This document shows, in pieces, positions 32,593-51,552 of a stretch of 59,582 nt of DNA. The translations under genes and the position numbers were made by a program. The DNA lies in the NCBI GenBank assembly GCA_013348845.1, contig CP054675.1, positions 810,419 through 870,000 on the forward strand, in the 5' to 3' direction. Every line of letters starts with the position of its first letter. Positions within the stretch are counted from its first letter, which is position 1. Below the pieces are notes generated by a model. The model was not told the DNA's origin. It saw only the letters and a program-made list of their open reading frames with translations, and made no database searches. This stretch comes from Candidatus Tepidiaquacella proteinivora. GTDB taxonomy: Bacteria; Bacteroidota; Ignavibacteria; Tepidaquicellales; Tepidaquicellaceae.

Positions 32593-34539
32593 CTATTTAT
32601 TTTTATTTCTTATAAATGAAAATATGGTTTTTAATATAATTTCAAAATCTAAAAGTAAACTTTGATTTTTGGCATAATATATAACATATTTATCAACTTC
32701 TTCCTGCGTTAAATTTTCATCTGCTTTTAATTGAATAATTCCTGTCAAACCTTTTTTCCCTAAATACTGATTATCACTCTTCTCATACCATAAAGGCATT
32801 CCAACAAAACTGTATTTACCCCAAAAAACATAAGGTAAAAGTAAAAATTTCGAAGTATATTTTGACCGTTTATTTTTAAAAACCTTTGAATATAAGTATA
32901 TAAATGGATACACAAAAATCAAAAGTAAAAATGATAAAACAATATCGAATAATCTCTTTAAGAATATATTTAATTTATTATTAATATTATATTCAATTTC
33001 AATAAGATTCAAATCGTCTATCTTTGAACTAATTTTTGAAATCATCAAATCCATATCTGTTGGTACAAATTTAAATTGAACATTTTTTCCGCGGAACTTA
33101 TTCATTAATCTCAATATATCTTTATTGGAAAAGAAATGACCAGAAAAAACAACAATATGTATATCGTATAAATTAATAATTTCTTCTAAATCGGAAATTG
33201 ATTTATTCCTGCTTAAATTTGTAAAATATAAAATATCATAACGCCCTGCCAATTTTTCTTCCATATTCTGACTTAACTGCTTATCACCTACTACCAGTAA
33301 ATTAATTTTCTTTAATAAAATATTTTTTTGTTTAATAAAATTATTAATTAACACAATTGCTCTCCAAGAGAGTAAAGTAAATATTGAAATTACTGTAGAA
33401 ATAAGAATAACTATTCTTGAAAAAGCATATTCCTTGAAAAAATAAGTAATTGAAGAATTAATAAAGAAACCCGCTACTAATGCACTGAAAGTGTTCCGTA
33501 ATGAATGTTTATATTTCTTTGCGTAAACACCAAACATTGCCAGTAAAAAAATCCATATCAGTACATATACAGTAATAATGAATAAATACTGGTCGGTCGG
33601 GAAAATGGAGAACCTTGCATAAACGGCAAAAACAAGTGAAGCAAAGATTAAAATTATATCTAAGAGTATAAACCCCATATACTTGATAATTCTTCTTAGA
33701 TATGACATCAAAGACCTGACAAAAATTCCAAAACGTAAAATTAAATATGTTATTATATTTAAACCTTTTAAATTCTTTTTAACAAATATAGCCATAGCAC
33801 CATAAAAATTATTAACATAAGAAAGTTTAGTTTTTCTGGTGCTTTCCCCTTTCAGATGAATAGTCGTAATCTCCGGATAATAATAAATCTTTTTACCTGT
33901 TTTCTTAATCCTATAACATAAATCAATATCTTCACCATACATAAAATAATCTTCATCAAAATAACCTACCTTATCAATTACATTTTTGGGAATAAACATA
34001 AATGCCCCACAAACAGAATCAACTTCATAAGTTACATTTTCATCCAAATAAGTCAGGTTATACTTACTTAAAATTTTACTTTTAGGAAACAGTTTAGATA
34101 ATCCAAGAATTCTTGGAATAGCAACACTGAGAGTTGGGAAACTCCTTCTACATGCATGGTCGAGTTCACCATCTGCTTTTATTAATTTTGATGTAACAAT
34201 ACCAGTGTCTGGATGATTTTCAACAAAATCAATTAACTTTTGAAATGTGCCCTCTTCAAGAACCGTGTCCGGATTTAATATCAGAACATATTTGCTATTT
34301 ATCTGTTTTAAAGCAATATTATTCGCCTTCGAGAAACCAATATTTTCTTTATTGACAATTAGTTTTACTTCGGGATATTTTTCCCTCACAAGATTCTGAC
34401 TTCCATCTATTGAATTATTATCTACAACAATAATCTCAATATTTAAATTTGTGCTGTTAGATTTATAAATTGATGCTAAACAATTATCGAGTGCATCTTT
34501 TACATTGTAATTTACAATAATTATCGAAATATCGAACAT
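32593..34539 (-). CDS. GT2 glycosyltransferase fused to a degenerate phosphoglycosyltransferase (WbaP/WcaJ-like) module
   Basis: This 648-residue protein has an unusual domain order. Residues 1-250 are a rhamnosyltransferase-type GT2 ([50 protein letters not shown]-like). Residues 285-400 hold about four membrane helices, and 405-505 a Rossmann-like domain, as in WcaJ-type initiating transferases. The C-terminus has [18 protein letters not shown] and [12 protein letters not shown] ... [11 protein letters not shown]. The catalytic RxDEFPQ segment is absent ([16 protein letters not shown] instead), as is the FKIIKFRTM region, so the transferase part is probably inactive and may act as a scaffold. 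The GT2 part looks active. Confidence 0.85.
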
Positions 34540-34555
34540 ATATAACTTCTTAAAA

Positions 34556-35278
34556 TTAAAGAGTTTTAAACATTGACCTGAATTTTAATTTCCACACCAT
34601 AATCATAGCTTCAAAGACAACTTTTTTAGACATCTTAGAAACACCAGCTCTTCTTTCAATAAAAAGTATAGGAATCTCTATAATTTTAAATCCTTTTTTA
34701 AAAAATTTGAATTTCATCTCTATTTGAAATGAATAGCCATTTGATTTTACATTATCAAGTTCAATTTGCTTTAATTTATCAACTCTATAACACATAAAAC
34801 CAGCAGTTGTATCGTGAACCTTTAAACCAGTTACAATTCTTGTATATATATTAGCAAAATAACTTAACAATAATCTTCTTATTGGCCAATTTATTACGGA
34901 TATACCATTAACATATCTTGAGCCCACAACTAAATCATATCCCTTTTCTATATTTTCTAAAAATTCAGGTAAATACTTAGGATCGTGAGAAAAATCAGCA
35001 TCCATTTCAAATACAAAATCATAACCTTTGTTTATTGCAAATTTAAATCCTTCGACATAAGCGGTACCTAATCCAGATTTTTTTTCCCTTTTAATTAAAT
35101 ATACATTTTCATTTTTCATCTCCTCGACTATTGCAGAAGTCCCATCTGGTGAATTATCATCAACAACTAAAACATTAAACAAATAATTTGCATTTGTATT
35201 TTTTAAAATTTCATTTATAATTTTCTTAATATTTTCTGCTTCATTATATGTCGGTATTATAACTAAAACACTTTTCAT
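34556..35278 (-). CDS. Polyprenol-phosphate mannose synthase-like GT2
   Basis: This 240-residue enzyme is DPM1-like: VIIPTYNEAENIKKII at the N-terminus, VVDDNSPDGTS, and the metal-binding MDADFSHDPKYLPEF. It ends with the IEIPILFIERRAGVSKMS segment typical of the soluble DPM1/Ppm1 class. It is expected to transfer mannose or a similar sugar from an NDP donor to a polyprenyl phosphate. It is wedged between the two initiating-transferase homologues (1 and 16 bases from them). Confidence 0.9.
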   Translation of the reverse strand: MKSVLVIIPTYNEAENIKKIINEILKNTNANYLFNVLVVDDNSPDGTSAIVEEMKNENVYLIKREKKSGLGTAYVEGFKFAINKGYDFVFEMDADFSHDPKYLPEFLENIEKGYDLVVGSRYVNGISVINWPIRRLLLSYFANIYTRIVTGLKVHDTTAGFMCYRVDKLKQIELDNVKSNGYSFQIEMKFKFFKKGFKIIEIPILFIERRAGVSKMSKKVVFEAMIMVWKLKFRSMFKTL

Positions 35279-35279
35279 T

Positions 35280-36659
35280 TTATTGCCCTTTCATCAAAAG
35301 AATAACAATAATTGTATTTAGCATAATTTTTAGATCCAGCGAAATACTCATATTTTCAATATAATAAAAATCATATTGCAATTTAATTCTCACATCATCT
35401 AAAGTAGAATCATATTTATGTTTAATTTGAGCCCAACCAGTTATACCAGGTTTGACACATAACCTTCTCTTATAATATGGTATTTCCTTATTAAGGTTCT
35501 CAACAAAAAAAGGTCTTTCTGGTCGGGGCCCTACAATACTCATATCATTTTTTAGAACATTTATAAATTGTGGAAATTCATCAAATCTTACTCTTCTTAA
35601 AATTCTACCTATTTTAGTAATTCTTGTATCATCTTTATCAGCCCAGCGAGGTCCCGTAGATTCAGAGCCAACATACATAGTCCTGAACTTAATAATTTTA
35701 AACATTTTACCATTTCTTCCAACTCGAATTTGAGTGTAAAAAACTGGACCTTTTGATGTTAATTTTATCATTACTGCTGTAAGAATAAATAATGGAATAG
35801 ATAAAATCAAAATTGTTACAGACATTACTATATCTATTATCCTTTTAATTAATCTTATTCTAAAGGTCATTATCTCCGGCATAACATCAATCAAAGGTAA
35901 ACCCCTTACTTGTTGTGATTTTGCCATACCACTAATGATGTCATATATATCAGGTATTATTTTCAGCCCTATATTCAAACCTGTTGTTCTATTTATTATT
36001 TCAAACATAACCTCACTTTTTGCAGGAGCGGATGAAACAATAATTTCCTGTATATTATTTTCTTGAATGATATTTTTTAATTCTGATAGTGAACCAAGTA
36101 CAGGCTCATCGGTAGTTTCATCATCCATTGAAACAAATCCAATAAATTTGAATCCCTGTTCGGGATGTTTCATTATTAACTTTTTAAGACTGATAGACTT
36201 TTCATTAATTCCAATAATAATAGTATTCCTTAGACCAATACCCTTTCTTAAAAGATTTCTTTGCATTCCACGGATAAGCAATCTGCCAGATGAGATTAGG
36301 AAGATTAGTAATCCCCAATAAATGAATATTAAGAAACGAGATACTGCTCTGTCATCCCGAATTATATCATCAAGAAAAATTATAAAAAAAAGGATAAAGG
36401 TTCCAATAGTAATAGACTTGAATACAGAATATAATTCATCAAATCTTGATCTAAGAAACCAATATTGATACAAACCCGATATACTAAATATAATAAGCCA
36501 ATAAAAATAAATTACAATTAAGGGTGGAAGAAAAGATGGTGATTTAATTAACATAAACCACCCTGACTCTATTCTTATATAAAAATAAATTAAATAGGTT
36601 AGTATTATTGCAATACTATCTGAAATCAGAAGTAATAATATTTGCTTTCTTTTGGACAA
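35280..36659 (-). CDS. Undecaprenyl-phosphate sugar phosphotransferase (WbaP/WcaJ family)
   Basis: This 459-residue initiating phosphoglycosyltransferase puts the first sugar-1-phosphate on undecaprenyl phosphate for surface polysaccharide. It has four N-terminal helices, a CoA-binding-like Rossmann domain (residues 140-250), then the re-entrant helix and the catalytic domain: GPVFYTQIRVGRNGKMF, IIKFRTM, VRFDEFPQFINVLKNDMSIVGPRP (with the Asp-Glu dyad) and KPGITGWAQI. All active-site segments are present, unlike the neighbouring fusion. The start is TTG. It follows the transaldolase gene by 8 bases. Confidence 0.94.
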   Translation of the reverse strand: MSKRKQILLLLISDSIAIILTYLIYFYIRIESGWFMLIKSPSFLPPLIVIYFYWLIIFSISGLYQYWFLRSRFDELYSVFKSITIGTFILFFIIFLDDIIRDDRAVSRFLIFIYWGLLIFLISSGRLLIRGMQRNLLRKGIGLRNTIIIGINEKSISLKKLIMKHPEQGFKFIGFVSMDDETTDEPVLGSLSELKNIIQENNIQEIIVSSAPAKSEVMFEIINRTTGLNIGLKIIPDIYDIISGMAKSQQVRGLPLIDVMPEIMTFRIRLIKRIIDIVMSVTILILSIPLFILTAVMIKLTSKGPVFYTQIRVGRNGKMFKIIKFRTMYVGSESTGPRWADKDDTRITKIGRILRRVRFDEFPQFINVLKNDMSIVGPRPERPFFVENLNKEIPYYKRRLCVKPGITGWAQIKHKYDSTLDDVRIKLQYDFYYIENMSISLDLKIMLNTIIVILLMKGQ

Positions 36660-36667
36660 AATTTTTA

Positions 36668-37399
36668 TTACATAATTTTATATCCTAAAGACTTTGCATC
36701 ATTATAAAACATTTTTACAGTATCAAGTGATAATTCATTTAAATCTTTATTTAACAAAGGAAGTTTCTTTAATATATCATTAGTTATTGTTATTATATCG
36801 CAGCCACAATTTACCGCTTGAATTAAGTTTAATAACTCTCTTGAACTCGCCCAGAGTAATTCTGCATTTGAATTTTCTTTGATAATTTTTCTTGCCTCTA
36901 TCATATATGGGACAGGGTCTCTTCCTGTATCTGCAATTCTACCAGCAAAAATTGAAATTATGGTTTTTGCTTTTTCATTTAATGCTGGCAGTATTTTCCT
37001 AACTTGTTCAACAGTAAGAACTGCAGTTATATTTAAAGATATTCCGTCTTCAGATAATCTCTTAATTAATTCAAATGATAATTCTCCACTTGTATTCGTG
37101 ATCGGTATCTTGACAAAAACATTTTTTCCCCAAGAATTTAAAATCCTTGCTTCCTTTTCCATAGTATCAAAATCATCTGAAAAGACTTCAAACGAAATTG
37201 GTAAATCAGTTATACACTTCAATAACTCTTTAGCAAAATTAACATAATCAGAAACTCCATCCTTTTTCATAAGGGTGGGGTTTGTGGTAAAGCCTTTAAT
37301 AAATCCCTCTTTATACAATCGCAACATCTCATTAATATTTGCACCATCAGCAAATATTTTAATATTAAGTTTTTCTAAAAATTCTTTATAGTTATTCAT
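36668..37399 (-). CDS. Transaldolase-family protein in a heptose biosynthesis cluster
   Basis: This 243-residue TIM-barrel protein is of the short transaldolase/fructose-6-phosphate aldolase family. It has IFADGANINEM, TTNPTLMKK, the Schiff-base lysine in VFVKIPITNTSG, and SLNITAVLTVEQV. It overlaps gmhB by 4 bases and lies directly downstream of gmhA, hddA and hddC. Transaldolase makes sedoheptulose 7-phosphate, the precursor used by GmhA, so a dedicated supply role is likely. Alternatives are a true F6P aldolase or a housekeeping transaldolase. Confidence 0.88.
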   Translation of the reverse strand: MNNYKEFLEKLNIKIFADGANINEMLRLYKEGFIKGFTTNPTLMKKDGVSDYVNFAKELLKCITDLPISFEVFSDDFDTMEKEARILNSWGKNVFVKIPITNTSGELSFELIKRLSEDGISLNITAVLTVEQVRKILPALNEKAKTIISIFAGRIADTGRDPVPYMIEARKIIKENSNAELLWASSRELLNLIQAVNCGCDIITITNDILKKLPLLNKDLNELSLDTVKMFYNDAKSLGYKIM

Positions 37400-37968
37400 A
37401 AATAATTTAGAATTATTTTTATTGCTTCATTAATATTAACTGCAAAGAAGTCTGGATCATTTCCTTTCTCTAAATTAAATAATCCTGATTTGATAAAAAT
37501 AGTTTTAAGTTTTGCATTTTTACCACATTTAATATCAGTATCTCTATCACCGATAAACCAGGATTCATTTTTATTTATATTATATTTCTTTACAGCATCT
37601 TCAACAAATAATGTGCCTGGTTTTCTACATTCACAGTTGATATTATATCCATCAACAATACCCTGAGGATGATGTAAGCAGTAATAGTATTCATTAATAT
37701 TAACTCCATTGCTTTCCATAATTTCTCTAAATTTTTCACAAACAGAATTTAATTTTTCATAAGATATTTTGCCTTTTGCAAAATCAGGTTGATTTGAAAT
37801 TACAAACAATAAAAAACCATTCTTTAATAATTCTTTTAGACTTTCATATACTCCATTTATAATTTCTATTTCTTCAATAGAATGAGGGGGTGTATATTCT
37901 TTAAATTCATTCCTGTAAATTAATTTATTTAAAACACCATCTCTATCTAAAAATACTGCTTTATTCAT
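37396..37968 (-). CDS. gmhB: D-glycero-D-manno-heptose 1,7-bisphosphate 7-phosphatase
   Basis: This 190-residue HAD phosphatase removes the 7-phosphate from heptose bisphosphate. The HAD nucleophile motif is FLDRDGVLNKL at residues 6-16, motif II is VISNQ, and the zinc-binding segment specific to GmhB is CLHHPQGIVDGYNINCECRKPG-like (near residues 98-119). The metal-binding WFIGDRDTDIKCG follows. It sits between gmhA and the transaldolase in the heptose operon. Confidence 0.93.
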   Translation of the reverse strand: MNKAVFLDRDGVLNKLIYRNEFKEYTPPHSIEEIEIINGVYESLKELLKNGFLLFVISNQPDFAKGKISYEKLNSVCEKFREIMESNGVNINEYYYCLHHPQGIVDGYNINCECRKPGTLFVEDAVKKYNINKNESWFIGDRDTDIKCGKNAKLKTIFIKSGLFNLEKGNDPDFFAVNINEAIKIILNYL

Positions 37969-37980
37969 CTTAAAAAATAA

Positions 37981-38580
37981 TTATTTTACTGATTCCCATT
38001 TCATATCATATTGTTGAATATCAGGATGTGATACTATTAAATGCCAAACAATAGCTTGGAATGCTTCTGTATGAGGTGTAATAGATTTCTCATTAACAGT
38101 AGGAATAATAACGCATGCATCTGCTTCACTATTTGTGAAACCACCATCTCTGCCTACAATTCCTATTACTTTTGCTTTAATTGTTTTAGCATATTTTATA
38201 GCTTCGACCAGATTTACACTAACTTTTTTTTCTAAATTTCCTCCCCCAACAGAAAGAATAAATAAACAATCTTTTTCATTAAAATTGCTAATTTTTAACC
38301 AGTCTACAAACACCGATTCCCATCCATTATCATTTATTCTGGCGGTTAACTCAGATACATTATCAACAGGTGTATATGATTCGATACCAGCGATTTTTCT
38401 AAAATCATTAACAGCATGAGATGCATTAGCAGCACTACCACCAACTCCAAGAATAAATAACCTCCCTTTCAAATTCTTCAGATCTTTAACTATCTTAATT
38501 ACCTTTTCAATACTAGCTTTGTCTATTTTTTCAATAACTTTCTTAGCCTCATCAAAATATTTTTCTATAAAATTATTCAT
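37981..38580 (-). CDS. gmhA: Phosphoheptose isomerase
   Basis: This 199-residue SIS-domain protein is predicted to convert sedoheptulose 7-phosphate to D-glycero-D-manno-heptose 7-phosphate. It has LFILGVGGSAANASHAVNDF, FILSVGGGNLEKKVS and the late TPHTEAFQAIVWHLI helix that supplies catalytic residues in GmhA. The pathway context (hddA, hddC and gmhB adjacent) makes GmhA far more likely than another SIS isomerase. It is 1 base from hddC. Confidence 0.9.
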   Translation of the reverse strand: MNNFIEKYFDEAKKVIEKIDKASIEKVIKIVKDLKNLKGRLFILGVGGSAANASHAVNDFRKIAGIESYTPVDNVSELTARINDNGWESVFVDWLKISNFNEKDCLFILSVGGGNLEKKVSVNLVEAIKYAKTIKAKVIGIVGRDGGFTNSEADACVIIPTVNEKSITPHTEAFQAIVWHLIVSHPDIQQYDMKWESVK

Positions 38581-38581
38581 A

Positions 38582-39295
38582 TTATGTGTGAATTTTATTT
38601 TTAAAAAGATTTAACATTTCCTCTAAACCTTTTTTAGAACCTATCTCATAAAACCTGCTATTCACCTCATAAGCTAATAATTCATCTTCCTTTAATAAAT
38701 ATTTATAAACTTCTTCTAAATCAAAATTCTTTTGATTTATAAAAGGATTAAAAGCATCTTTACTTAAAATACCTAAGCCATAATCAATATAATTCATTTC
38801 AGGTTTGTTTACAGATTTGTTATATTCAATTATTTTACCATTTCTGTATATTACATTACTTCTATCATACAAGTTATCATTTTTGAAAATAGTCATCAAT
38901 CCTAATTTATTTTGCTTTTCATAAAAGGACGATATTTCTTTGAAATTAATATCAAGATATGAATCGCCATATATAACAAAAAAATTCTGATCCAGGTATT
39001 TTAATGCATTTAATATACATCCTCCGGTTCCTAAGGGAACAGGAAAATCATAAGAATAAAAGATTTCAAAATTTCTAAAAAATGAATTTTCACCTTTTAT
39101 ATATTCTTCAATCTTTTCTCCAAGAACACCTAAACAAAGCACTACTTTGTTAATTCCATTTTTTTTAAATATTTCAAATTGCCGATAAATAAATGGTTTT
39201 CCTGATATATCAATCAATGATTTAGGAATAGTATGAGTTATGGGGTATAACCTTGTTGCTTTTCCACCAGCAATAACACAAATCTGCTTGATCAT
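38582..39295 (-). CDS. hddC: Nucleotidyltransferase, probable D-glycero-D-manno-heptose 1-phosphate guanylyltransferase
   Basis: This 237-residue nucleotidyltransferase has the sugar-NTP signature VIAGGKATRLYPITHTIPKSL at the N-terminus, with IYGDSYLD as the metal-binding Asp segment. Next to hddA and gmhA it fits HddC, which makes GDP-heptose from heptose 1-phosphate and GTP. GTP specificity cannot be proved from sequence; ADP-type enzymes (HldE) are fused to a kinase, which is not the case here. It begins 2 bases downstream of hddA. Confidence 0.87.
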   Translation of the reverse strand: MIKQICVIAGGKATRLYPITHTIPKSLIDISGKPFIYRQFEIFKKNGINKVVLCLGVLGEKIEEYIKGENSFFRNFEIFYSYDFPVPLGTGGCILNALKYLDQNFFVIYGDSYLDINFKEISSFYEKQNKLGLMTIFKNDNLYDRSNVIYRNGKIIEYNKSVNKPEMNYIDYGLGILSKDAFNPFINQKNFDLEEVYKYLLKEDELLAYEVNSRFYEIGSKKGLEEMLNLFKNKIHT

Positions 39296-39297
39296 AA

Positions 39298-40281
39298 TTA
39301 ATCACTAAAAATTTTTTTTGCACCTTCCTTCTCAAAGGTAAACCAAGTTGGTTTTAAATTTAATTTTTCCATAGCTTCAAGAAATCTGATTTTATTTTGC
39401 GGGCAATAAAACAATAAAAAACCACCCCCACCAGCACCTACGACTTTACCTCCAATAGCGCCATTTTTCAAAGCTACATCATAAATTTCATCTATTGAAT
39501 CATCTGATATTTTATTAGATAAACCCTTCTTTACCTTCCAATGTTCATTCAGTAATTCTCCGAACTCATCAAGTTTTCCATTTTCAAATATTTTCTTAGT
39601 GTAAAAACCTATTTCCTTAATTCTGTGTAATCTCTCAATAATCTGTGCATCATTCTCCTTAACCTTTTCATTCTGTTCCTTTAATACATTACTTGCAAAT
39701 CTGTTTTTATTAAGATAAAATAAAAAAAGATTATTTTGTAATTCCATCAAAGCACCATCACTTATATTAACAGGTTCTATATTTACTGTCCCATCCTTAT
39801 TAAAATAGTATCCATTAAAACCTCCATAAGCAGCAACATATTGATCTTGTTTCCCTATTGGTTCTTTTAATATATCAATTTCAATATAACATGCTGTTTC
39901 TGCAAGTTTGCTTAATGATACATAATCTCTTTTATATGCAAATAATGCATTTAATAATGCAACCGTAAAAGTAGAAGATGTTCCTAATCCGCAATTTGAT
40001 GGAACATCAGCCATTGAAACAAGTTCTATATGCTTGTTGATTGAAAAATACTTTAAAGCTTCTCTGAAAATATTATGCTCAATAGCCTCAATACTATCAA
40101 CAATTTCGGTTTTTGAATATGAGAGTCTGATCGATGACTCAAACCTTTTATTAAGAAGAATATAAACGAATTTATTGATTGCAGTAGCCATAAGAAAACC
40201 ACCAAATCGTGAATAATATGAAGCAAGATCCGTTCCTCCTCCTCCCAACGAAATTCTAACCGGTGCTCTCGATATAATCAT
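39298..40281 (-). CDS. hddA: GHMP kinase, D-glycero-D-manno-heptose 7-phosphate kinase
   Basis: This 327-residue GHMP-superfamily kinase starts IISRAPVRISLGGGGTDLASYY, the HddA hallmark, has the ATP-binding loop VPSNCGLGTSSTFTVALLN and ends with the C-terminal GGKVVGAGGGGFLLFYC. It phosphorylates heptose 7-phosphate at C1 in the GDP-heptose pathway. A Shine-Dalgarno-like GGAG lies 8 bases before the ATG. The start overlaps the upstream epimerase stop by 4 bases. Confidence 0.93.
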   Translation of the reverse strand: MIISRAPVRISLGGGGTDLASYYSRFGGFLMATAINKFVYILLNKRFESSIRLSYSKTEIVDSIEAIEHNIFREALKYFSINKHIELVSMADVPSNCGLGTSSTFTVALLNALFAYKRDYVSLSKLAETACYIEIDILKEPIGKQDQYVAAYGGFNGYYFNKDGTVNIEPVNISDGALMELQNNLFLFYLNKNRFASNVLKEQNEKVKENDAQIIERLHRIKEIGFYTKKIFENGKLDEFGELLNEHWKVKKGLSNKISDDSIDEIYDVALKNGAIGGKVVGAGGGGFLLFYCPQNKIRFLEAMEKLNLKPTWFTFEKEGAKKIFSD

Positions 40282-41255
40282 TTTGTTTCTCCTTCGAAAA
40301 AAGATTTATTTCTTAATGCTTCTTGATAGATAGAATTTATTGAAATTTCTATAGCTTTTTTTGAGTCATATTTATTTTTCCAACCAAGATTGCGAATTTT
40401 TTTTGAATTCAACCTCACTATTGGCACATCTCCTTTCCATCCTCTATCACCACCAGTGAATATATATTCAACATTAATTAAATTTGTAATATTCACTGCT
40501 ATATCGGCTATTTCTTTGACGGTAATATAATCTTCAGTTGCAACGTTGAAATAATTATAGCCTTTCAGATAATTTAATTCTATTAATCTCATAGCAGAAA
40601 TTACATCATCTACATATATGTAAGATTTACTTTGTGAACCATTACCTAAAATTTCAAGTTTTGTGTTATCTCTTAATAATTTTTTAACGAAATCATAACC
40701 TACACCATGTGTTTGATTAGGCCCAACAACATTAGCAAATCTAAAAACTGATGCATTAAAATCAAACATATGACAGTATGAACAAATCAAAGATTCACAT
40801 GCAAGTTTGCTTGCGCCATACGTCGATATTGGTAACATTGGGGAATAATCTTCATCAGTTTCCTTATAACCTGTATCACCATAAACACCACTTCCAGAAG
40901 CGTAAAGAATATTCCTGATTGAATTAATTCTCATTGCTTCAACAACATTATTAGTTAAATATGTTCCTTCCCAAAAATCAATGTCCGGTTGTTGCATTGC
41001 TTTTGCAATATCAGGATTAGAAGCAAAATGATAAATAACATCAAAACCTTTCATAGCTTCAGATAATTTTTCAAAATCTTTAACATCTGCTCTGACAATA
41101 TCAAGATTTTTATTATTTTCAACCTCCCTTAAATGGAACATTTTACCTGATGAAAAATTATCATAAATTCTGACAAGATTATCATTTTTTAATAACTCCT
41201 TAACCAAATGACTACCTATAAAACCAGCCCCACCTACAATAAAGTATTTCTTCAT
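40278..41255 (-). CDS. NAD-dependent nucleotide-sugar epimerase/dehydratase
   Basis: This 325-residue extended SDR has the Rossmann motif YFIVGGAGFIGSHL, a Ser in YASGSGVYGD and the catalytic pair in STYGASKLACE. I choose ATG 41255: the Rossmann strand begins at once, and AAGGAG lies 10 bases upstream; an in-frame TTG at 41279 would add eight residues that overlap the GT2 gene. Directly upstream of hddA, it may modify GDP-heptose (for example C4 or C6 chemistry as in 6-deoxyheptose pathways) or act on UDP-hexose; sequence alone does not tell. Confidence 0.85.
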   Translation of the reverse strand: MKKYFIVGGAGFIGSHLVKELLKNDNLVRIYDNFSSGKMFHLREVENNKNLDIVRADVKDFEKLSEAMKGFDVIYHFASNPDIAKAMQQPDIDFWEGTYLTNNVVEAMRINSIRNILYASGSGVYGDTGYKETDEDYSPMLPISTYGASKLACESLICSYCHMFDFNASVFRFANVVGPNQTHGVGYDFVKKLLRDNTKLEILGNGSQSKSYIYVDDVISAMRLIELNYLKGYNYFNVATEDYITVKEIADIAVNITNLINVEYIFTGGDRGWKGDVPIVRLNSKKIRNLGWKNKYDSKKAIEISINSIYQEALRNKSFFEGETK

Positions 41256-41256
41256 A

Positions 41257-42084
41257 TTAAAAAATTCTCCTTTTAGCAAAATACATAAAAGTTTGAAGCC
41301 TTTTCCTTAAAAAGAATGGAGCAAATGAATAAATGTATTGTAAAGTATTAACAAACCGAGCTTTACGATAATTCGGGTAACAATCTTTATATTCCCTTAT
41401 TAATTTAATAATAGCTTTCGATTGTGCCCTTTGATATATAAATGATTTATTTTGGCCTGCGGACATATAACATGTAAAATATTCCTGAAAATTATATAAT
41501 TTACCAATCAACCCAATTCGCAAGAAAAAATCCCAATCTTCAGCAAAATGACAATCTTTATACAAACCAATTTTTACAGCTGACTCTTTTCTAAACATAA
41601 CAGTAGGATGTGTAAAAGGGCATGCAAAAAGTATATTTGCTCTAATTTCTTCATCACTTTCTTTCCTTAAAAATTTAAAAACTGCTTCACCTTTTGAATT
41701 TACCAAAATTATTCCCCCTCCACAAATCACATAATCCTTTTTGGTATCAAGAAACTCAACTTGATATTTTAACTTATCCTCAAAAATCCAGTAATCATCA
41801 TCATCAAGTCTTGCTATATATTTACCTTTTGAAACATTTATGCCAAAATTCAGATATTTACTAATACCAGGTCTATCATCTACCGGAATCCTATAGTAAT
41901 GAATTCTTGAATCCATTTTTTCATAATTTCTCATTAACTCTTCAGTAGAATCCACGGAAACATCATCCACAACAATCAACTCCCAATCTTTAAATGATTG
42001 ATTTAGTACACTTTTAACAGCTCTATCCAACATCTGAGCTCTATTGCAAGTAGGTAAAACTATACTAACTGTTGGGTCAATCAT
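41257..42084 (-). CDS. GT2-family glycosyltransferase
   Basis: This 275-residue inverting glycosyltransferase of GT-A fold has SIVLPTCNRAQMLDRAVKSV at the N-terminus, VVDDVSVDST, and the metal-binding run RLDDDDYW (residues 93-100). There are no membrane helices. It is the first gene of the minus-strand glycan operon, ending 1 base before the epimerase ATG. Donor and acceptor are unknown; heptose is a candidate donor from context. Confidence 0.87.
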   Translation of the reverse strand: MIDPTVSIVLPTCNRAQMLDRAVKSVLNQSFKDWELIVVDDVSVDSTEELMRNYEKMDSRIHYYRIPVDDRPGISKYLNFGINVSKGKYIARLDDDDYWIFEDKLKYQVEFLDTKKDYVICGGGIILVNSKGEAVFKFLRKESDEEIRANILFACPFTHPTVMFRKESAVKIGLYKDCHFAEDWDFFLRIGLIGKLYNFQEYFTCYMSAGQNKSFIYQRAQSKAIIKLIREYKDCYPNYRKARFVNTLQYIYSFAPFFLRKRLQTFMYFAKRRIF

Positions 42085-50688: not shown

Positions 50689-51552
50689 TTAAATAAAATC
50701 TCCAAATTTAGTTGGCTCTAATTCTGAAAGAGCGAGTTTACCTTGTTCTTCATTTGGTGGTACACCATGCCATTTATAATCATTCTCCATAAATGAAACT
50801 CCTTTTCCCATTTTAGTTTTAGCAATAATTACAGTTGGTTTATCATTTACAGATTTACAATAATCTATAGCATTAATTATCTCACCAATATTATTGCCAT
50901 TTATTGTAATCGGTTGCCATCCAAAAGAAATAAACTTATCTTCAAGAGGCTCGATATTCATAACATTATTTACATAATTATCAATCTGACAATTATTATA
51001 GTCAACAATCATAGTCAAATTAGAAACCTTATGATGAGATGCAGTCATTATTGCTTCCCAAATTTGCCCTTCTTGTAGCTCCCCATCTCCATTTATACAA
51101 TACACTCTGTTATTCTTTTTATCAAGCCGTAACCCGAGCGCAGTTCCAACTGCAATAGATAAACCCTGACCTAAAGAGCCTGAAGCAATTTCTACCCCGG
51201 GAACTCCATGAGTCTTAAATGGAGCAGGATGTCCCTGAAGCCTACCATTAATCTTTCGTAATGTTTTCAATTCTTCTAAAGGGAAATACCCTCTCCTTGC
51301 TAAAGTTGCATACCATACCGGTGCAATATGCCCTATTGAAACAAAAATATAATCTCTATCTTCGGAATATGGATTTTCATTATCAATATTAGCTTTATTA
51401 AAATATAAGGTTGTAAATATATCAGCCATTCCTAAAGGACCACCAGAATGTCCTGATTTTGATATTAATAACATATTAATTATATCACGACGAATTTGAC
51501 GAGACATTTCTTCTAATTCATCAATATTATTAATTAAAGGATTTTTAGCCAT
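50689..51552 (-). CDS. Transketolase, N-terminal subunit
   Basis: This 287-residue protein is the thiamine-diphosphate-binding half of a split transketolase: SGHSGGPLGMADIFTTLYF, the His-containing SIGHIAPVWYA, GSLGQGLSIAVGTALG, and the diphosphate motif NGDGELQEGQ...VDYNN. Split transketolases need a C-terminal subunit, usually encoded next to it, but none lies here: plsY is upstream, and downstream is the convergent PorV-like gene. It would supply pentose/heptose phosphates in the pentose phosphate pathway. Confidence 0.93.
   Translation of the reverse strand: MAKNPLINNIDELEEMSRQIRRDIINMLLISKSGHSGGPLGMADIFTTLYFNKANIDNENPYSEDRDYIFVSIGHIAPVWYATLARRGYFPLEELKTLRKINGRLQGHPAPFKTHGVPGVEIASGSLGQGLSIAVGTALGLRLDKKNNRVYCINGDGELQEGQIWEAIMTASHHKVSNLTMIVDYNNCQIDNYVNNVMNIEPLEDKFISFGWQPITINGNNIGEIINAIDYCKSVNDKPTVIIAKTKMGKGVSFMENDYKWHGVPPNEEQGKLALSELEPTKFGDFI

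Follow-up and report, generated by a model that had tools for sequence, protein, structure and literature searches.

A transaldolase-isomerase gene cassette that probably makes an activated octose for surface glycans

Introduction

Which sugar is made by a glycan operon that carries a transaldolase among genes resembling those for GDP-heptose? The question is raised by a stretch of 59,582 nucleotides from Candidatus Tepidiaquacella proteinivora (contig CP054675.1, positions 810,419 to 870,000; the whole stretch is called the window here), a member of the Ignavibacteria whose genome is a single contig of 2.40 Mb and 98.66% complete. On the minus strand of the window, from 42084 down to 32593, runs an operon-like series of genes that includes a transaldolase (TAL), a SIS-domain isomerase, a GHMP kinase, a HAD phosphatase, a nucleotidyltransferase and a short-chain dehydrogenase/reductase (SDR). 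A preliminary description had named four of these genes gmhA, hddA, gmhB and hddC, and had suggested that TAL provides sedoheptulose 7-phosphate (S7P), from fructose-6-phosphate (F6P) and erythrose-4-phosphate (E4P), for the synthesis of GDP-D-glycero-D-manno-heptose. We propose that the six genes form a cassette, with TAL and the isomerase as its core, which probably provides a surface glycan with an activated higher-carbon sugar, and that this sugar is most likely an octose rather than a heptose.

S7P is normally an intermediate of the pentose phosphate pathway, and to our knowledge the characterised heptose pathways take it up without a transaldolase of their own. The only characterised pathway known to us that has the enzyme set of the cassette is that of lincomycin. 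There the transaldolase LmbR is reported to form D-glycero-D-altro-octulose from the donor F6P or S7P and the acceptor ribose-5-phosphate (R5P) (PMC5854111). A table of 2015 gives LmbR, the octulose 8-phosphate isomerase LmbN, the phosphatase LmbK and the guanylyltransferase LmbO as confirmed, and the kinase LmbP and LmbM as predicted (PMC4351081). LmbM was assigned in 2020, and LmbM and others are described as taking the GDP-octose onward (PMC12945683). All six of these activities are represented by family in the window.

The cassette isomerase has a GmhA fold and an altered zinc site

In its AlphaFold2 model (predicted local distance difference test score, pLDDT, 89.8), the cassette isomerase finds GmhA structures as its best folds in the PDB (2x3y and others; template modelling score ~0.72). 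The zinc ligands of GmhA, H64, E68, Q175 and H183 in the numbering of B. pseudomallei, are reported to be fully conserved across orthologues and to tolerate mutation poorly (PMC5705639), and this H-E-Q-H set was present in all 14 classical GmhA sequences that we collected. The cassette isomerase lacks it: at the zinc places, 66 of 66 cassette isomerases, window included, carry H55, D59, E172 and H180, so that two of the four ligands are changed. H55 and D59 were placed by PDB profile alignments together with hhalign, and E172 and H180 by hhalign alone (probability 99.6), with a four-residue insertion before them; the last helix starts at 164 and 169 in the two models compared.

The genome also encodes a classical GmhA, downstream of a gene that we take from its sequence to be the 3-deoxy-D-manno-octulosonate (KDO) transferase WaaA. 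Against the GmhA model TIGR00441 this protein scored 179.4 bits and the cassette isomerase 52.1 bits, both below the cut-off of 209.45. Given the altered zinc site and the classical GmhA elsewhere in the genome, the cassette isomerase is a second, different enzyme.

The transaldolase is linked to the isomerase

The preliminary description considered a built-in precursor step unusual. When genome contigs were searched with ten TAL sequences, the result indicated the opposite: at least 523 of at least 589 pattern-matched candidate stretches encode a TAL relative, so that a one-off can be dismissed, and the cassette recurs in many bacterial and archaeal groups. Bacterial relatives include those of Ignavibacteria/Bacteroidetes, Acidobacteria, Cyanobacteria, Melainabacteria, Omnitrophota, Elusimicrobia, Spirochaetia, Lachnospiraceae, several proteobacterial groups, Oscillochloris, Verrucomicrobia and Parcubacteria-type bacteria, and archaeal ones those of Methanoperedens, Methanomicrobiales, Thermoplasmata and Micrarchaeota. 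Locus counts below refer to the best 80 of the at least 523 relatives; residue counts omit incomplete or odd-length open reading frames (ORFs), which gives 66 isomerase rows for 71 loci and 73 TAL rows for 80 loci, window included.

Within 10 kb of TAL, the isomerase was found in 71 of the 80 loci, a GmhB-like phosphatase in 67, an HddC-like nucleotidyltransferase in 59, an SDR in 55 and an HddA-like kinase in 53. The isomerase lies on the strand of TAL in 70 of its 71 loci and less than 1.5 kb away in 64. All five core genes (all but the SDR) are present in 45 of the 80 loci and all six in 37; among the 53 loci of at least 15 kb, the isomerase occurs in 49 and the full set of five in 38. At 14 loci two cassette enzymes are fused in a single ORF. 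These comprise two GmhB-TAL fusions (L071:9443-10705 and L087:9461-10735), ten GmhB-HddC fusions (L033, L059, L062, L067, L086, L088, L089, L090, L103 and L107; nine of them in Lachnospiraceae), one isomerase-GmhB fusion and one isomerase-HddC fusion. Moreover, TAL distances track those of the isomerase and of GmhB (Mantel rho 0.50 and 0.45, values reached in 0 of 2000 permutations).

Glu71, Lys97 and Phe151 occur in 73 of 73 aligned TAL rows, and Glu71 and Phe151 align with the corresponding Glu and Phe in solved transaldolase structures. The active site of fructose-6-phosphate aldolase (FSA) holds Gln59 and Tyr131 at these places, and we therefore rejected the idea that TAL is an F6P aldolase only. 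Together, the conserved adjacency, the GmhB-TAL fusions and the transaldolase-type residues tie TAL to the isomerase, and its product is plausibly the ketose phosphate on which the isomerase acts. To this extent the earlier proposal that TAL feeds the pathway stands; S7P as its product is doubtful. The question whether the genome has a further transaldolase has a positive answer: TalC, of the TIGR00875 type (319.1 bits), is encoded at C1:1199603-1200244, and TAL is thus not the only one.

In a sample of 395 genomes of the window's phylum, TIGR02134, the family of TAL, was over its cut-off in 10, and two further partial copies were seen (G047, on a small contig, and G256, cut by a contig end). 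The cassette isomerase was present in 11 genomes, and TAL adjoins all 11, one being cut by a contig end (Fisher p 1.5e-20 for co-occurrence, with 12 genomes taken as TAL carriers, including the two with partial copies). Classical HddA, defined as at least 240 bits, was found in 19 genomes, and the loci were examined over ~8 kb either side, two of the 19 being cut by contig ends. Neither TAL nor TalC occurred within this distance at any of the 19 loci, whereas classical GmhA did at 15; in addition, these 19 genomes lack both the cassette isomerase and any TIGR02134 match over cut-off. The difference in TAL linkage, 0 of 19 classical HddA loci versus 11 of 11 cassette isomerases (p 1.8e-8), shows that the classical clusters of this sample dispense with a linked transaldolase and the cassette does not, in line with the heptose pathways that lack one.

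Several further loci are recorded here as separate observations. In G306 and G271, of the window's order, cassette-type HddA-like kinases adjoin an SDR (L152 and L155); neither genome has the cassette isomerase or a TIGR02134 match over cut-off. On a plasmid of Streptomyces sp. 3211 (L116:16676-19427), a TAL relative of 46% identity is flanked by a D-arabinono-1,4-lactone oxidase and a hexitol phosphatase, in what we take to be a different small pathway. In a member of the Leptolyngbyaceae, a TAL relative (L098:9998-10702) stands outside any sugar-nucleotide cluster, near ORFs that we take to be LeuC-like and GalE-like genes. On a Lawsonia intracellularis plasmid (L118), the isomerase, phosphatase and TAL genes follow one another, and those for the kinase and nucleotidyltransferase lie ~5 kb further along; their annotations read SIS, HAD-IIIA, transaldolase, galactokinase and nucleotidyltransferase. 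Plasmids searched with the isomerase gave no lincosamide-type cluster among the feature names of the matches listed, and a phage search with it gave one weak match.

Precursor supply in carrier genomes

Transketolase was searched for in the genomes of 79 of the 80 loci (L057 left out), as a set of 41 and a set of 38 plus G000; TAL_FSA matches were counted in 41 of the 80 genomes and phosphoketolase was searched for in ten. The window genome has transketolase-N matches outside the cassette. Among the set of 41, of which 38 have the isomerase in the locus, six had no transketolase-N match: Methanoperedens (G399), Methanomicrobiales (G404), Methanoregula (G407), Methanospirillum stamsii (G411), a Parcubacteria genome (G416) and G421. 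In each of these six the cassette-type TAL is the only TAL_FSA match.

Because several of the six are fragmentary metagenome-assembled genomes, we sampled 100 genomes of the order to which M. stamsii belongs. Transketolase-N was found in eight of them, TIGR02134 at an E value of 1e-20 or better in nine (five over cut-off), and the cassette isomerase in seven, with TAL adjoining all seven, one cut by a contig end. No transketolase match was found in any of these seven isomerase-bearing genomes. In two of the seven the TAL is divergent (117 and 103 bits) and its neighbourhood lacks a kinase. In G484 and G568 (L167/L204 and L168/L205), a TAL 32-34% identical to that of the window adjoins a cassette isomerase of 58-59% identity, and neither a kinase nor a nucleotidyltransferase relative lies within ~8 kb of the pair; the arrangement would suggest recruitment of a different transaldolase. 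Genome G520 has a TAL just over cut-off and a transketolase, and is without the isomerase.

Besides transketolase, phosphoketolase is a conceivable source of E4P. It was absent from all ten genomes searched, which include the six without transketolase and, from the order's seven, only M. stamsii, where the cassette TAL is the sole TAL_FSA match. M. hungatei is described as having no transketolase and no non-oxidative pentose phosphate pathway, its ribulose-5-phosphate and hence R5P being made by another route (PMC5241800). The isomerase-bearing methanogens without transketolase thus have no obvious source of S7P: from F6P and R5P, with no E4P, a transaldolase can make octulose 8-phosphate and not S7P. 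The octulose 8-phosphate route, from F6P and R5P, therefore seems to fit better than the S7P route.

The same data bear on a TAL that would sit in the operon only to balance pentose phosphate flux, without being a step of the pathway. TIGR02134 members do also occur in catabolic-looking contexts; nevertheless, the fusions of TAL with the phosphatase, the pairing of isomerase and TAL in all 11 isomerase-bearing genomes of the phylum sample and all seven of the order, and the presence of TAL in genomes without a transketolase match make this explanation extremely improbable.

Layout of the operon and standing of the gene names

The features of the operon are given in Table 1. All five genes of the preliminary description are present and adjacent on the minus strand, and TAL overlaps gmhB as it had noted: the start of TAL and the stop of gmhB share an ATGA, a 4 bp overlap, the two genes being separate in the window. 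The SDR gene, which it did not mention, is part of the same run. This protein contains the motif ASGSGVYG; 4,6-dehydratases have Asp-Glu at this site, and the window SDR has no Asp-Glu there. In the GmhB-like phosphatase, D8, D10, C97, H99, C112 and C114 are at least 95% conserved (49 aligned rows).

Table 1. Genes of the operon-like run, in order of transcription, with model scores and curated cut-offs.
Feature	Position in window	Strand	Evidence
GT2 (glycosyltransferase family 2) protein, first gene of the operon	41257..42084	-	PF00535
SDR nucleotide-sugar epimerase, GalE-like (LmbM-like by role)	40278..41258	-	PF01370; best PDB match 3ehe, GalE-1 (2.4e-79)
GHMP sugar kinase, HddA-like (LmbP-like by role)	39298..40281	-	HddA model (NF049969) 181.6 bits (cut-off 600); best PDB match 3k85, titled heptose kinase (2.5e-46)
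Sugar-1-phosphate nucleotidyltransferase, HddC-like (LmbO-like by role)	38582..39295	-	HddC model 88.7 bits (cut-off 300); MurU model 88.0 bits (cut-off 250); best PDB matches 6jq8 and 5xhw, 'putative 6-deoxy-D-mannoheptose pathway protein'
Ketose-phosphate isomerase with SIS domain, GmhA-type fold and changed zinc site (LmbN-like by role)	37981..38580	-	Model fold, residues
HAD-IIIA sugar-bisphosphate phosphatase, GmhB-like (LmbK-like by role)	37396..37968	-	PRK08942/GmhB 115.6 bits (cut-off 178)
Transaldolase (TAL), TIGR02134 family, proposed octulose-8-phosphate synthase (LmbR-like by role)	36668..37399	-	TIGR02134 352.6 bits (cut-off 281.95)
Polyprenyl-phosphate glycosylphosphotransferase, would start the glycan	35280..36659	-	TIGR03025 426.4 bits (cut-off 295.55)
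GT2 glycosyltransferase	34556..35278	-	PF00535
GT2 fused to a degenerate glycosylphosphotransferase-like part	32593..34539	-	N end PF00535; C end CoA_binding_3, partial Bac_transf

Among the ten proteins scanned, TAL, a full member of its family, and the glycosylphosphotransferase passed a curated family cut-off; the phosphatase passed in broad HAD-domain models only. Since the GmhA-, HddA-, HddC- and GmhB-like proteins score below the equivalog cut-offs, their names are right at the level of the superfamily and provisional at that of exact function. The HddA cut-off was reached in none of the 395 phylum genomes. As the HddC and MurU scores are nearly equal, the models do not single out the nucleotide.

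This last point touches on a TAL with another aldehyde acceptor, for example arabinose-5-phosphate or a modified aldose phosphate, whose product would be a different higher sugar, neither an S7P-derived heptose nor an octose of the lincosamide type. The equal nucleotidyltransferase scores would allow for it, as would the active-site residues of TAL, which do not fix the acceptor, and the two archaeal genomes in which a divergent TAL is paired with the isomerase and no kinase or nucleotidyltransferase is nearby. Against this, the only characterised pathway known to us with this enzyme set uses R5P (PMC5854111, PMC4351081), and we judge another acceptor to be rather improbable.

Among the matches listed, the closest relatives by TAL are Ignavibacteria/Bacteroidetes records. 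All eleven operon query proteins, AccA included, were matched in L034, L035, L036, L039 and L051, and ten of the eleven in L044, which is without GmhB; in these six related loci the GT2 gene likewise precedes the SDR. Of the sugar transferase domain, the GT2 fusion at the end of the run retains just the tail; it resembles a degenerate glycosylphosphotransferase and is kept in related operons. Elsewhere in the window, a stand-alone gene for the N-half of transketolase (287 aa, 50689-51552), with no C-half located, has unrelated neighbours; a second sugar cluster around it was considered and rejected, the scanned neighbours not being sugar-nucleotide genes.

Discussion

We consider, with moderate confidence, that the cassette is best read as a lincosamide-type nucleoside diphosphate (NDP)-octose pathway that would feed surface glycans. 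The case is built on the gene set, the pairing of TAL with the isomerase, the altered isomerase site, the redundancy within the genome, which also encodes a classical GmhA and a TalC and has transketolase-N matches, and the methanogens without transketolase. In the proposed scheme, TAL would transfer a dihydroxyacetone unit from F6P onto R5P, giving D-glycero-D-altro-octulose 8-phosphate, which the SIS isomerase would convert to octose 8-phosphate. The GHMP kinase would then add a phosphate at C1, the HAD phosphatase would remove the 8-phosphate, and the nucleotidyltransferase would form the NDP-octose, probably with GDP. Finally, the SDR would epimerise the NDP-octose, and the glycosyltransferases of the operon would build the octose into a polyprenyl-linked glycan. 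The scheme follows the order given or proposed for the lincomycin octose, LmbR, N, P, K, O and M (PMC4351081, PMC5854111, PMC12945683). All of its substrates and products are ones that we infer; gene content, conservation, linkage, catalytic-residue patterns and the absence of transketolase in some carriers were observed directly.

Several observations weigh against an octose. The catalytic residues are the same in the cassette TAL and the housekeeping TalC and do not tell E4P from R5P. TIGR02134 is not specific to octoses: 9 of the 80 loci, some on short contigs, are without the isomerase, among them that of the transketolase-less G416, and on plasmids TAL copies neighbour phosphotransferase system genes in L119, ABC transporter genes in L120 and a lactone oxidase in L116. 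Co-divergence with TAL is weak for HddC, HddA and the SDR (rho 0.23, 0.13 and 0.12, with 5, 100 and 127 of 2000 permutations as high). The presence of TIGR02134 in classical-HddA genomes (0 of 19) does not differ significantly from the rest of the phylum sample (Fisher p = 1.0), because TAL is rare. Four TAL-isomerase pairs (L198, L199, L204 and L205) have no HddA- or HddC-like gene within ~8 kb, so that the full pathway is not always linked and TAL plus isomerase form the core; L198 (G078) reaches ~5 kb on one side, and L199 (G169) is also without a phosphatase relative. The likeness to the Lmb enzymes is one of gene set and chemistry.

The remaining points of this kind favour the heptose named in the preliminary description, in the form of a GDP-heptose pathway in which a TAL of its own would make S7P from F6P and E4P, and a divergent isomerase would lead to heptose-7-phosphate, perhaps of non-manno stereochemistry. 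Among solved structures the isomerase and the kinase are closest to heptose enzymes. A transketolase-N match above the cut-off was present in 35 of 41 carrier genomes in one set and 38 of 39 in the other, some matches being weak, so that S7P should be available in most bacterial carriers, where E4P is probably at hand. The case for the heptose is thus one of homology and of transketolase in most bacterial carriers. It has to contend with an isomerase that lacks two GmhA zinc ligands, a classical GmhA elsewhere in the genome, the absence of a transaldolase within ~8 kb of any of the 19 classical HddA loci, and isomerase-bearing methanogens without transketolase. We therefore regard a heptose as unlikely, and GDP-D-glycero-D-manno-heptose made from S7P as doubtful.

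Returning to the octose, we put forward a wider proposal tentatively, giving it slightly less than an even chance of being right: NDP-octose made through a transaldolase may be a common, horizontally spread source of surface-glycan octose in bacteria and archaea, of which the lincomycin octose genes would be a captured offshoot; in a methanogen without transketolase, such as M. stamsii, it may be the sole use of its one transaldolase. If an octose is indeed made, the names phosphoheptose isomerase, heptose kinase and transaldolase would be wrong for many genes of glycan clusters, and a sugar that we know biochemically from the lincosamide antibiotics would occur widely as a building block of glycans. 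It would also explain the role of a transaldolase in archaea that lack the pentose phosphate pathway. A TIGR02134-type transaldolase beside a SIS gene with an H-D-E-H site could then serve as a rule for finding such clusters. In titles and abstract openings, with most subscription journals outside the search, we found no account of the cassette in glycan clusters. The branched octoses of Gram-negative bacteria arise by addition of a two-carbon branch, a different chemistry. Such octoses have been reported in Gram-negative polysaccharides (PMC4753412).

How the cassette relates to known systems can be set out enzyme by enzyme. TAL shares its fold family with TalC/FSA (TIGR00875), the type of the genome's other copy; however, it scores 103.9 bits against a cut-off of 245.95 for that model and is ~30% identical to the genome's TalC. 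Its own family, TIGR02134, bears the name 'transald_staph', yet 71 of the best 80 copies stand beside a GmhA-like isomerase and not in a pentose-phosphate setting. The isomerase, kinase, phosphatase and nucleotidyltransferase are homologous to GmhA, HddA, GmhB and HddC of the GDP-D-glycero-D-manno-heptose pathway, from which the cassette differs by its TAL, by the changed zinc ligands of its isomerase and by lower kinase scores (148-182 bits, versus 240-465 bits for the classical HddA of the phylum sample).

With the octose pathway of lincomycin and celesticetin the cassette has six activities in common by family: transaldolase, SIS isomerase, kinase, phosphatase, nucleotidyltransferase and epimerase. 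LmbN is reported to carry a carrier-protein domain (PMC4351081), whereas the window isomerase stands alone. The lincomycin genes form an antibiotic cluster of Streptomyces, while the cassette is set in a glycan operon, together with GT2 glycosyltransferases and a polyprenyl glycosylphosphotransferase.

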